IMG/VR virus record: IMGVR_UViG_3300046542_000187
Coordinates: 1 to 41,305 of that record
DNA from: a virus
Reading direction: 5' to 3' (one strand)
DNA length: 41,305 nucleotides
A program made the translations under genes and the position numbers. Positions 3,282 through 31,384 of the stretch are shown in pieces; positions within the stretch are counted from its first letter, which is position 1, and each line of letters begins with the position of its first letter. Below the pieces are notes generated by a model. The model made no database searches. It was not told where the DNA came from and saw only the letters and a program-made list of their open reading frames with translations.

Positions 3282-4105
3282 TAGAACCACCTCCCAATGG
3301 CGAATACTTTTTCCACGACGGAGATCCCTGCCGGCGTGAGGTAATCAATCACAAAGAAGTTGCAGGCCGATGTGGTCGTGTTCGGATCGCCGCTCAGGCT
3401 ATTGACCCGACCCACCCCTCTGACATCCCCAGCTATAGCCGGAGCCACTGCGAAAACCGCTGGGAATGTCCAACTGCCGAAGTAGTACCAGATATTCCCG
3501 TAGGCCGTGAAATCACCGATTACCAGGCTATATGACCTGTTCCGGGTACAGATCTGTGTACCATCTGCAAACCGCACATACTCACCGTTGCCATTCGAGC
3601 CGCGCTCGATGATTGCGCCGGTTACCGCCCCGCCCGACTGGGTAACGTTACCGACGATCACCCCTGGCTTGACGCTGAAAACCGAATATTTGGTGCAAAT
3701 CCAATTGCCTGATCCGAGGCTTTGAAACTCAGCTGTATCGTTAACGAAAGTGGTGATGTTGAAACCACCAGGCAGGATCAGCGAAGTGGCGTTGTGCGTC
3801 AGGATCAGTGAGCCGGCGAAGCGCAGGGTGCGCGTCACCCCAGCGGCAGCCGTGCCGAGGGAAGTAACAGTCGCCGCACCGCTGATAAAGATGATGTTGG
3901 ACGTGGCCGCGCCAATATCCGTCAACGCAGCCGCCGCGATGGTTTGCGGAGTCGTTTGGTTCTGGTCGCGCAGCAATGCGATGTATGATGCATACGTTCG
4001 CAGGTAGTCATCAATGGTCGACGGCGATTCAGACCCAGCCGGGGAGTTACTACCGGCCGTGGTCGAAAGGTCATTGATCGAAGAAGGAATCGGCATGTTT
4101 TTCAT
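3281..4105 (-). CDS. tail fibre protein, receptor-binding candidate
   Basis: This 274-residue protein has an N-terminal segment (about residues 1-60) with helical Thr/Tyr/Leu content and a long Ala/Thr/Gly/Val beta-rich middle. The C-terminal block contains Gly-Glu-Tyr-Val-Arg-Phe-Ala-Asp-Gly-Thr-Gln-Ile-Cys, a hallmark of phage fibre tips, and the gene ends in Ile-Gly-Arg-Trp-Phe. It should form trimers at the virion tail and recognise the host surface. It is short for a podovirus tailspike and has no visible enzymatic domain. A minus-strand terminator lies directly upstream, so it probably needs antiterminated late transcription. An internal ATG at 4096 is an alternative start. Confidence 0.82.
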   Translation of the reverse strand: MKNMPIPSSINDLSTTAGSNSPAGSESPSTIDDYLRTYASYIALLRDQNQTTPQTIAAAALTDIGAATSNIIFISGAATVTSLGTAAAGVTRTLRFAGSLILTHNATSLILPGGFNITTFVNDTAEFQSLGSGNWICTKYSVFSVKPGVIVGNVTQSGGAVTGAIIERGSNGNGEYVRFADGTQICTRNRSYSLVIGDFTAYGNIWYYFGSWTFPAVFAVAPAIAGDVRGVGRVNSLSGDPNTTTSACNFFVIDYLTPAGISVVEKVFAIGRWF

Positions 4106-28941: not shown

Positions 28942-29049
28942 TGGTTCGCTCCTTTAGCGATAACTGTATTTAAGCATGCTAATTTTTTAACAGCAAGTCG
29001 AGCCAAGCAGCAAGGCCATACTAAAGTTAAGCGGGCTTAATATTTGCGA
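28942..29049. promoter_or_regulatory. right operator region, pR and repressor promoter
   Basis: The divergent region between cro and cI holds two operator-like palindromes: TTAAGC-AT-GCTAAT (28970-28983) and the perfect TTAAGC-GG-GCTTAA (29027-29040). On the minus strand TTGCTG (28996-28991), 17 bases and TTAAAT (28973-28968) form pR, with the first operator covering the -10 end. The second site is 9 bases before the cI start codon, so cI mRNA has a very short leader and this site is suited to autoregulation. The exact repressor promoter is not clear. Confidence 0.75.
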
Positions 29050-29727
29050 ATGAACAGACCAGAACGAATCGCTGCGGCGATCAAACACAGCAAGAAGCTC
29101 AAGAAGGTGATCGCCAACGAATGCGGCGTCACCGGATCGGCCGTAACCCAGTGGGTTACCGGCGACAGCAAGAGCATGAAGCCAGAGAATCTCTTTGCTC
29201 TTGCGGCTGCTACCGGCGTGAGCGCCGAGTGGTTAGCTAATGGAACCGAACCGATGATCGAGGTATCCGCCAAGGAATCTTTTGGCTCACCAAGCGAGAA
29301 GGATTACGCATTGATCCCCCAATACAAGGCGCACGGGGCGTGCGGCGATGGCTACCTGAATGATCACGTAGAGGTCTCAGAAGGCCTCGTCTTCAAGCGC
29401 GATTGGTTGGCCAGGATGAAGGCTAAGCCGGAGAACCTACGCATCATCTATGCGGAGGGCGACAGCATGGAGCCATACGTATTTGAGGGTGATGTGGTGC
29501 TGTTTGATGGCTCGAAGACCGAGCCTAAGGATCGGCAAGCCTACGTCCTCAGGCGCCCAGACGGAGGTATCAGCATCAAGCGGCTGATCCAGCAGATTAC
29601 CGGAGGCTGGTTGATTCGTAGCGACAACGCAGACAAAACGAAATATCCGGACGAACCTGTTTCCGAAGATGCGCTCCATGAAGTGCCTATCCTGGGGCGT
29701 GTTATTTGGCGCGGCGGCGAGATGTGA
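29050..29727 (+). CDS. cI: CI-like prophage repressor with LexA/S24 self-cleaving domain
   Basis: This 225-residue protein has an N-terminal helix-turn-helix ([18 protein letters not shown], about residues 18-35). The S24 domain has the catalytic Ser139 in Glu-Gly-Asp-Ser-Met-Glu-Pro, Lys177 in Ile-Ser-Ile-Lys-Arg-Leu, and a scissile Cys98-Gly99 within Gly-Ala-Cys-Gly-Asp-Gly, as in UmuD rather than lambda's Ala-Gly. RecA after DNA damage should trigger cleavage and induction. ATG 29050 is chosen over TTG 29044. It binds operators on both sides (28970-29040 and 30145-30203). Confidence 0.93.
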
Positions 29728-29751: not shown

Positions 29752-30078
29752 ATGAATAGATTGAGATTTTTGATCGCTGCGCCAATGTTTCTTATGCCGC
29801 TTACTGCGCTGGCTGTTACTGGCAACACGCTGCATGAGTCCGGGAAAGCCTACAACAGCAGCGGCTCCTCATTCGATGGGGGCTTCTACAAGGGATACAT
29901 CTCCTCCTTGGCTGAGGTTTTTCTCGAAACAGAATATTGCCCACCAGAAAAATTCACAGACAACCAGGCCGCAGCCATAGTCTGGAAATGGCTGAAGGCT
30001 AACCCCGAGCGCTGGGCAGAGCCTGGAGCAAACGTGGTTCTTGCAGCCCTAAAAACCGCATTCCCTTGCAAGAAATAG
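29752..30078 (+). CDS. periplasmic Rap1a/Tai-like protein in the rex position
   Basis: This 108-residue protein has a signal peptide of about 21 residues (Asn-Arg-Leu-Arg, hydrophobic core, Ala-Leu-Ala cleavage site). The mature domain matches the Rap1a/Tai immunity fold: Gly-Gly-Phe-Tyr-Lys-Gly-Tyr-Ile-Ser, Glu-Tyr-Cys-Pro-Pro, Val-Trp-Lys-Trp-Leu-Lys-Ala-Asn-Pro-Glu-Arg-Trp, and a C-terminal Ala-Phe-Pro-Cys. The two Cys probably form a disulphide. The ribosome site AAGGAGGTGAT is close to perfect. It follows cI and precedes a terminator, so it should be made in the lysogen. In type VI secretion such proteins neutralise peptidoglycan amidases. Here protection of the lysogen, or exclusion of other phages, is inferred. 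Confidence 0.82.
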   Translation: MNRLRFLIAAPMFLMPLTALAVTGNTLHESGKAYNSSGSSFDGGFYKGYISSLAEVFLETEYCPPEKFTDNQAAAIVWKWLKANPERWAEPGANVVLAALKTAFPCKK

Positions 30079-30144: not shown

Positions 30145-30205
30145 TTAAGCATTCTAAATTTATTTATTCAGGATGCTTGACTCTGGAGGTTTAGCTTGCT
30201 TAAAT
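30145..30205 (+). promoter_or_regulatory. left operators and plus-strand early promoter (pL-like)
   Basis: There are three evenly spaced 14-bp sites: TTAAGC-AT-TCTAAA (30145-30158), TTCAGG-AT-GCTTGA (30167-30180) and TTTAGC-TT-GCTTAA (30190-30203). Start-to-start distances are 22 and 23 bp, about two helical turns. TTGACT (30177-30182), 17 bases and TTAAAT (30200-30205) make a promoter whose -35 and -10 are covered by the second and third sites. The -10 TTAAAT and its position in the operator match pR. Confidence 0.75.
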
Positions 30206-30577
30206 TCAATCAACGCCACAGAACACCGAGGCGCCAGGGCCTAACAGGACCCGCCACACGACTGGTGAAGCCGCCAGATAGCCCGGGATCAGCGAAGTGA
30301 TCTCCCGACCCCCGACAGGGGACCGACCGGACACAAGTTCTTTGACATAGAGATTCAAACCGGTGACTGCGCCAGTAGCGGGTAACGGTGGAAAGCATCA
30401 CTGAAGCACCTAGGGGACTGGGTGCTTTGGGATGCGGATGACCAAGCAACCTCCGCGCAACGCGGCCCCTGCATCACCTAAGATGGCATCTGGCTGTTTC
30501 CGGATCGCCATCTGGCTTTACGACTGCCTCTCAAACCCCGGGAGGCATTCGAAAGCCCACTGAATGGAGTAACCGCG
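30206..30577 (+). ncRNA. structured untranslated leader of the left early transcript
   Basis: This is 372 bases without a gene. Hairpins follow one another: 30284-30307 (CGGGATCA with TGATC-TCCCG), 30310-30321 (CCCC-GACA-GGGG), 30366-30376 (ACTG-CGC-CAGT) within ACCG/CGGT, 30404-30427 (AAGCACC/GGTGCTT) and 30453-30465 (CCGCG-CAA-CGCGG). Two adjoining two-step stems complete the series: 30481-30513 and 30514-30557. GTTCTTTGA at 30337-30345 looks like a boxA. A role in antitermination, either nut-like with a protein or RNA-based like HK022 put, is inferred. Confidence 0.5.
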
Positions 30578-30778: not shown

Positions 30779-30791
30779 CCCTCTCCGTACA

Positions 30792-31162
30792 CGTCTTGCC
30801 AGACGCAAATGGCCCGATATCTCCATGGTGATGGAGAGTGCCTGTATCGGTGGGGACACTGAAATAAGCTCCGATTCAGTTCGTGAGCCTTGTCAGCAAT
30901 AGCGGTAGGCCGAGTGGCCATGAAGCCTACCTGCGCTGGAGCTTAGCCATGATGCCGGGAGTCATGACCACGGAGAAAGCTAAGCCTCGCCTTCGGGCGG
31001 ATAGAAAAACAGTGTCCCCTCCAATGCAGGTACAGCTGCAGCGCAAATGGTTGCGCACGACTCTGTACGACCAAGCGGAGGATTTGCAGCCATGTAACAG
31101 ACAGTCAAAGCCCTCCAGCAGGAGGCGAATCACCCCGCGTAGGGAGGTCTATGCGAGGTAGT
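30792..31162 (+). ncRNA. large structured RNA candidate in the left early transcript
   Basis: This gap of about 370 bases has no convincing gene. Helices are CGTCT/AGACG (30792-30805), CCGATA/TATCGG (30814-30819, 30845-30850) enclosing CTCCAT/ATGGAG, and a long-range perfect 10-bp GGGGACACTG/CAGTGTCCCC (30852-30861, 31010-31019). Inside it are TAAGCTCC/GGAGCTTA (30865-30872, 30938-30945), an AGCG-GTAGGC stem (30901-30937), CATGA/TCATG and CGCC-TTCG-GGCG. Beyond it are GTACAG/CTGTAC (31030-31068) enclosing GCGCAA/TTGCGC, and CCTCC/GGAGG (31112-31125). A terminator follows. No known RNA class is recognised. Confidence 0.55.
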
Positions 31163-31190
31163 AAAGCCGGCTTTCGAGTCGGCTTTTTTA
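31163..31190 (+). terminator. intrinsic terminator at the end of the structured RNA
   Basis: AAAGCCGGCT-TTCG-AGTCGGCTTT followed by further T makes a 10-bp stem (one G-T pair) with a TTCG loop. A reading frame starting at ATG 31151, which has GGAGG before it, runs through this hairpin into the next gene, so ribosomes could affect termination. Confidence 0.8.
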
Positions 31191-31213
31191 TTGGGCGATT
31201 GGAGGTGAGTGTG

Positions 31214-31384
31214 ATGCGCACCGTTCAAGAGGTTGAGAAAGAAGTTGGCTGGACTGAGGAAGAAGCTTCTCAGTGTGGCTGCTACATGCGTGAGGAGCCA
31301 TGCGAGCGCTGCTGGTCATTGGGCTGGGCGCTGGGTGGCGAAGACATCATCAGGCCAGAACAACCAGTTGAGCAGCAGCCATGA
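31214..31384 (+). CDS. 56-residue Cys-rich early protein
   Basis: From ATG 31214 (GGAGGTG six bases upstream) the protein begins Arg-Thr-Val-Gln-Glu-Val-Glu-Lys-Glu-Val-Gly-Trp. It has four Cys in Cys-Gly-Cys-Tyr, Pro-Cys-Glu-Arg-Cys, a likely metal site. An in-frame upstream start at 31151 would give 77 residues and cross the terminator. Function unknown; it opens a run of ATGA-coupled small genes. Confidence 0.65.
   Translation: MRTVQEVEKEVGWTEEEASQCGCYMREEPCERCWSLGWALGGEDIIRPEQPVEQQP

Follow-up and report, generated by a model that had tools for sequence, protein, structure and literature searches.

A candidate exchange site for structured RNAs in early left operons of Pseudomonas phages

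In a temperate phage genome, a gene-free stretch of the early left operon almost certainly encodes a structured RNA, judging by its predicted fold and its covariation. We are also highly confident, from comparison with related loci, that a conserved scaffold (30780-30850 and 31021-31190) encloses an exchangeable, closed RNA, the cargo (30852-31019), and we call this site the slot. Positions are those of the window, the whole 41,305-nt stretch of DNA that was analysed (IMG/VR record IMGVR_UViG_3300046542_000187). What the sequences themselves demonstrate is RNA structure, cargo exchange, operon position, tRNA-like parts in some cargos and a conserved minigene. Our main reading, to which we assign a probability of about 0.4, is that the early left operon of lambdoid Pseudomonas phages has here a cassette site for structured RNAs, the cargo of which acts in trans on a host factor.

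The element lies on the + strand and begins directly after the stop codon of the upstream ORF (30778), a gene for which our search for relatives found none. There is no plausible gene between that stop and the next ORF (31214), leaving 30780-31190 gene-free. The order in the window is cI, a Rap1a-like ORF (Table 1), a terminator and then a series of small ORFs up to Erf and a RecE-like exonuclease, which is the lambda left-operon layout. A same-strand cI was found upstream of the slot in 20/20 hits at loci where position could be checked, and the slot lay 1-3 kb behind it. In all hits phrog_4801 and the Erf and exonuclease genes were 3' of the slot, with replication genes on the opposite strand. 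Many relatives also carry, between their early genes, two further conserved structured modules (30431-30477 and 30482-30558 in the window; motifs GATGCGGATGA..CCTGCATC and ATGGCATCTGGCTG..CCATCTGGCTTTAC). At the other end, a frame at 31151-31384 opens within the last hairpin, at an ATG next to GGGAGGT, and continues in frame across the terminator into the gene at 31214.

Table 1. Coordinates of the slot components and of two genes upstream of them in the window
Feature	Position	Strand	Remarks
CI-type repressor	29044-29727		PHROG repressor, E 6e-49; Peptidase_S24
Rap1a-type immunity-like ORF	29752-30078		Directly behind cI repressor; Pfam PF18602, E 5e-18
Scaffold hairpin a (CGTCT-TGCC-AGACG)	30792-30805	+	Position kept in most of ~50 distinct 5' scaffolds
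Scaffold strand 0 (CCCGATA; conserved CCCGA)	30813-30819	+	Can pair with TATCGG 30845-30850
Scaffold hairpin b (TCTCCAT-GGTG-ATGGAGA)	30820-30837	+	Other hairpins take its place in relatives
Scaffold helix P1, 5' strand (GCCTGTATCGG)	30840-30850	+	
Exchangeable cargo RNA	30852-31019	+	Closing helix P2 30852-30861/31010-31019; inner helix 30941-30947/30979-30985
Scaffold helix P1, 3' strand (CCAATGCAGG)	31021-31030	+	
3' flank hairpin (GTACAG..CTGTAC, inner GCGCAA..TTGCGC)	31030-31068	+	Common to L050, L075, L077, L087, L094, L097
Minigene: Shine-Dalgarno GGAGG, ATG 31092-31094, TAA 31095-31097	31076-31097	+	
Two hairpins, minigene to terminator (GCCCTCC-AGCA-GGAGGC; CCGCGTAGGGAGGTCTATGCGAGG)	31110-31158	+	
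Intrinsic terminator (AAAGCCGGCT-TTCG-AGTCGGCTTT + T run)	31163-31189	+	Sequence and fold

The region folded at -177 kcal/mol, compared with a mean of -143 kcal/mol for shuffled sequences (z -5.93; 0/100 shuffles), and the core 30852-31019 folded alone gave z -3.96. One contig, IMGVR_UViG_2645727858 (records L001 and L009), carries a 95%-identical core that aligns without gaps and differs by 10 substitutions. Three compensatory pairs (30853/31018 and 30855/31016, both G-C to A-U, and 30944/30982, U-A to A-U) account for six of them; two more keep their pair through G-U, and two are unpaired. The consensus fold keeps every one of its pairs; on the minimum-energy fold of the window itself, L001 loses one pair against 5.1 expected. 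Three compensatory pairs were reached by 0/20,000 random sets of 10 substitutions. The sole long reading frame in the core (GTG at 30883) has acquired two stops in L001, and we rejected a protein-coding core for that reason. Together, the compensatory pairs and the stops in the only long frame are why we consider the element to be RNA. Compensatory changes with no conserved reading frame were found both between the window and L001 and in the cargo group described below as class 0.

The first-pass annotation, made from the window's letters alone, had placed a large structured RNA candidate in the early left transcript, within a stretch free of genes that folds by eye into roughly ten helices. 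These proposals agree with the fold (z -5.9), the absence of any plausible gene and the comparison with L001, which does the reverse of keeping a frame without its pairings. The 10-bp helix that it had singled out (now P2) is perfect and holds two of the compensatory changes. Its 8-bp inner helix (30865-30872/30938-30945) can form in the window but loses one pair in L001; the third compensatory change, at 30944, falls in an alternative, 30941-30947/30979-30985, which the covariation supports over it. Its five tetraloop hairpins (TGCC, GGTG, TTCG, ATGG, AGCA) are all in the sequence, and its terminator appears in both sequence and fold. It had recognised no known RNA class, and we likewise saw no match in Rfam and no tRNA in the window with ARAGORN. 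No Rfam 15 family scored above its gathering threshold at the window or at the slot of relatives.

The first-pass annotation had also treated about 370 nt as a single RNA. The stretch is structured RNA, but it is modular, a scaffold around an exchangeable insert. The 5' flank (30780-30851) was present in 19 fetched loci and the 3' module in 111, compared with only two records of one contig for the core; the scaffold modules are common to more than 100 Pseudomonas phage contigs. Locus L040 matches the window at 70/72 positions of the 5' flank and 113/117 of the 3' module, and its cargo is an unrelated RNA of 55 nt. MD8 and phi2, phages of P. aeruginosa, are another such pair, with the same flanks around different cargos. 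Across fetched loci the insert is bounded by GYATCGG and CCRATGC, and the scaffold consensus reads hairpin a (CGNC-AGCC-type), CCCGA, a replaceable hairpin b, GCATCGG, cargo, CCGATGC and a further hairpin. Hairpin a itself shows both-side changes among 5' scaffolds (CGTC..GACG and CGAC..GTCG).

The first and last 8-16 bases of a cargo pair together. In 18 scaffold-defined elements, a set chosen blind to pairing, the closing arms made a mean of 9.1 contiguous bp with their own partner versus 3.0 between phages. Clustering by sequence gave about 28 cargo classes of 33-198 nt, unrelated in sequence and fold, a count made under an orientation rule by which L091 (293 nt) is probably spurious and the known cargos L040, L062, L081 and L002 slot 1 are missed. 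Inside the classes there are both-side pair changes, with few broken cells in most. Four loci (L002, L010, L049, L144) have two slots in a single operon. A second scaffold (AATGCGCAGGCTGATGCGC..CCGGAGATCAGCACCGG) occurs in L061, L105, L111, L130 and L144 (slot 1); it is found 3' of the slot and also inside the slot, where it forms a cargo whose interior is itself variable, making nested slots. Between the terminator and the next ORF, a hairpin module (CGTCAGCACTC..GAGTGCTGACGAAT) is conserved in many relatives, e.g. L012, L013 and L014.

Among named phages, scaffold matches lie in or beside unannotated gaps of MD8, phi1, phi2, zjk6 and vB_PaeS-D14E (P. aeruginosa), of phiPSA1, psageB2, psageK9, Medea1 and Aurca01 (P. 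syringae) and of PseuP_224 (P. protegens). We read the slot directly in MD8, phi2, phiPSA1, SC_8_H2H8_2017, PseuP_224, Medea1 and Aurca01. A genus-wide pattern search gave at least 29/299 genomes with a real scaffold hairpin as judged by eye, which is a rough lower bound as the pattern is mixed with chance matches in genes. With the whole element as query, a first BLAST search of phages and plasmids found nothing. The window's own cargo is rare, because exact patterns from it match only L009 and its matches in Pseudomonas genomes are at chance level. The end of an early-operon ORF beside the slot in L010 (1004-1479) resembles the variable region of a diversity-generating retroelement target. 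Rfam RT-15 RNA was found in L055 (6488-6679), where a template-like repeat and an apparent reverse transcriptase gene follow, and in L065 (6730-6918); we rejected it as a slot RNA, since this diversity-generating-retroelement-like region is elsewhere on the contig.

Strong mosaicism at the flanks would also be expected if the palindromic boundaries were DNA-level recombination linkers that promote exchange of early-gene cassettes and have no RNA function. Compensatory changes inside cargos and the tRNA parts described below are RNA signals, however, and an ATG-stop implies a translated RNA. Because of the covariation in particular, we regard such linkers as a very improbable explanation.

One cargo, the 146-nt class 0, was found outside Pseudomonas. 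Copies with 72-78% identity are present in Citrobacter phage phiNP and on plasmids (44-94 kb) of Salmonella, Leclercia and Serratia, and some of these plasmids have phage-type genes near the copy. In phiNP the RNA again lies in a gap without genes, 3' of an HTH regulator, and the enterobacterial copies do not have the Pseudomonas GCATCGG frame. Among 13 sequences, both-side changes occurred in 18/37 pairs and 96% of cells pair; 0/500 shuffles reached its both-side changes. Slid structures gave 32-45%, a control that is flattering since the structure was derived from the same alignment, and the both-side changes are nonetheless many. Because class 0, with its covariation, occurs without the Pseudomonas scaffold in enterobacterial phages and plasmids, we infer that the cargos are autonomous RNA families. 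Just upstream of class 0 in phiNP (L239, ~3380-3480), a hairpin resembling a T arm, GTCCG-TTCAATT-CGGAC (0.008 expected by chance), stands together with another look-alike.

We compared cargos with 22 Pseudomonas tRNAs. Against a small shuffle control of 12 per cargo, the L018 cargo contains a D-arm stretch in the correct place behind the closing stem (score 22.5; shuffle maximum 10.5), the L006 cargo has a T-arm that abuts the closing stem directly (15; maximum 11), and the L099 cargo has the exact anticodon arm of tRNA-Thr(UGU) (15; maximum 10.5). Similarity in the L002 and L081 cargos was borderline, and that of the window's cargo was not above chance (9.5; maximum 11.5). A tRNA-Thr-type anticodon hairpin with the loop CTCGTAA or CTTGTAA and a varying stem is present in L004, L010, L099 and Medea1. 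The Rfam tRNA model did not match the L006 or L002 cargos. A complete tRNA in the slot was rejected, as neither ARAGORN nor the Rfam tRNA model found a cloverleaf in the window or the relatives tested. Phage Medea1 (L208, 3584-3661) has a tRNA-Met(CAT) gene beside the slot, not in it, and this gene shares its gene-free block with the cargo that bears the tRNA-Thr-type anticodon arm.

Phage tRNAs are established as a means of defeating tRNA-cleaving defence, as with retron-associated effectors (PMC11555353). Like such tRNAs and tRNA decoys, some cargos have canonical D-, T- or anticodon arms, properly placed by the closing stem in L018 and L006. Unlike them, the slot arms are grafted onto foreign folds that form no complete tRNA by ARAGORN or, where it was applied, the Rfam tRNA model, and the window's cargo has no tRNA part.

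All of the 3' module lies downstream of the cargo. It opens with CGGAGGATTKGCAGCC-ATG, a Shine-Dalgarno/ATG-stop minigene, followed by two hairpins and the terminator. ATG is directly followed by a stop in 122/139 distinct sites (82 TAA, 38 TGA, 2 TAG), a share that is inflated because the first search required ATG-TRA. Of the 17 remaining sites, 15 stop after one or two extra codons (MK, MHQ, MQQ, MGN and others), and in new sites from a relaxed scan the frame was almost always three codons or fewer. The minigene was found on 118 viral contigs and agrees in PseuP_224 (ATGAAATAG), Aurca01 (ATGAAGTAA) and phiPSA1 (ATGTAA). That the stop codon varies while its position stays fixed argues for genuine translation. 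A wider-order sample contained it in 0/391 genomes, few of them Pseudomonas, which is weak evidence that the module is restricted to the genus. The bar minigenes of lambda read ATG-ATA-TAA, and their toxicity is relieved by peptidyl-tRNA hydrolase. The slot minigene shares with them a very short frame, a strong ribosome-binding site and the left operon, but it is mostly ATG-stop, stands right before hairpins and a terminator, and is kept in more than 100 phage contigs.

This arrangement bears on the main rival, in which the RNA, minigene and terminator are a cis-acting attenuator or antitermination leader with the cargo as its sensor domain. Read-through into the downstream early genes would be set by ribosome loading at the ATG-stop and by alternative scaffold pairing, CCCGAT with ATCGG or GCATCGG with CCGATGC. 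The terminator is directly behind the conserved ATG-stop, the operon is the same every time, and in the window the alternative pairing is only 7 kcal/mol above the best and leaves the cargo fold intact. A sensor or polymerase-binding RNA should retain a common core, however, and the cargos are unrelated in sequence and fold; one class is also found in other genera without the scaffold. We consider cis-acting control unlikely, although it is the strongest of the alternatives. Antitermination, one of the roles floated in the first-pass annotation, is disfavoured for the cargo because the cargos have no common core. The put antiterminator RNA of HK022 is short, conserved and promoter-proximal, and makes RNA polymerase terminator-resistant in cis. 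Like put, the slot provides a lambdoid phage with structured RNA within its early left transcript; unlike put, it is 1-3 kb behind cI and has a variable core. A leader at 30189-30313, just past the PL-like region, is highly conserved (90% in L001, with matches in 30 fetched loci) and would be a better put-like antiterminator candidate than the slot.

Rapid cargo turnover and the intrinsic terminator at the end would both suit base-pairing small RNAs, whose cargo loops would anneal to messages of the host or of competitor phages, while the scaffold would stabilise the RNA and the terminator supply an Hfq tail. The cargos, though, are compact, multi-helix RNAs closed by 8-16 bp helices, and it is the whole fold that is conserved, not an unpaired seed; we find this explanation improbable. 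We give a little less weight again to the idea that a cargo expressed in the lysogen keeps out competing phages or controls immunity in the manner of the C4 antisense RNA of P1/P7. The slot does adjoin the immunity region and cargo diversity would fit immunity types, but it is on the early lytic (PL-like) side, behind the terminator that follows cI, and it matches no Rfam family, hence not the C4 model if included.

Unrelated conserved folds are exchanged at a fixed early-operon site, some with tRNA mimicry, so the simplest reading is a store of RNA effectors under diversifying selection. The scaffold (two hairpins and a flanking helix, then a ribosome-binding site with its ATG-stop minigene and a terminator) would carry one folded RNA closed by its own helix. 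The cargo would be transcribed early together with the operon, and partial termination or processing may free it. It could then act in trans on a host factor as a decoy or inhibitor, most likely on a defence or tRNA-acting enzyme, and changing host defences would drive cargo swapping. Action in trans on host factors is tentative, a little short of an even chance, and a possible counter-defence role is favoured. Slightly more doubtful is the fuller joint claim of a landing site for interchangeable RNA effectors, an RNA counterpart of protein anti-defence islands, in which each cargo neutralises a different host enzyme, tRNA-arm mimics are among the cargos, and cargos move between phages of Pseudomonas and enterobacteria. 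Several observations count against action in trans: the window's cargo is no more tRNA-like than chance and has only one relative, tRNA parts were seen in only about five cargo classes, and searches of PHROGs and Pfam identified no known anti-defence protein among the tested neighbours.

Searches of open-access papers found no description of such a slot, and a term search of the MD8 genome paper gave no mention of non-coding RNA. Within that literature and Rfam the swappable slot appears new, and phage RNAs, tRNA decoys and minigenes are known kinds. GOLLD, a large phage RNA, can contain tRNA. Like it and the other large phage RNAs in Rfam, the slot RNA is structured and phage-borne, but it is modular with interchangeable cores and has no Rfam match. 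Membership of a large phage RNA class, another suggestion of the first-pass annotation, thus fits only the shared scaffold; the folded core is swapped among about 28 unrelated ones.

To our knowledge, phage counter-defence has been sought almost entirely among proteins. One conserved, searchable scaffold before about 28 unrelated folded RNAs would allow RNA effectors to be listed systematically, and at least one of them, the 146-nt class common to enterobacterial phages, is ready to be described as a new RNA family. Function can be tested directly in pairs with the same flanks and different cargos, MD8 and phi2 among them. Even with cargos that act in cis, the site would represent a novel type of operon switch that includes a conserved ATG-stop minigene.
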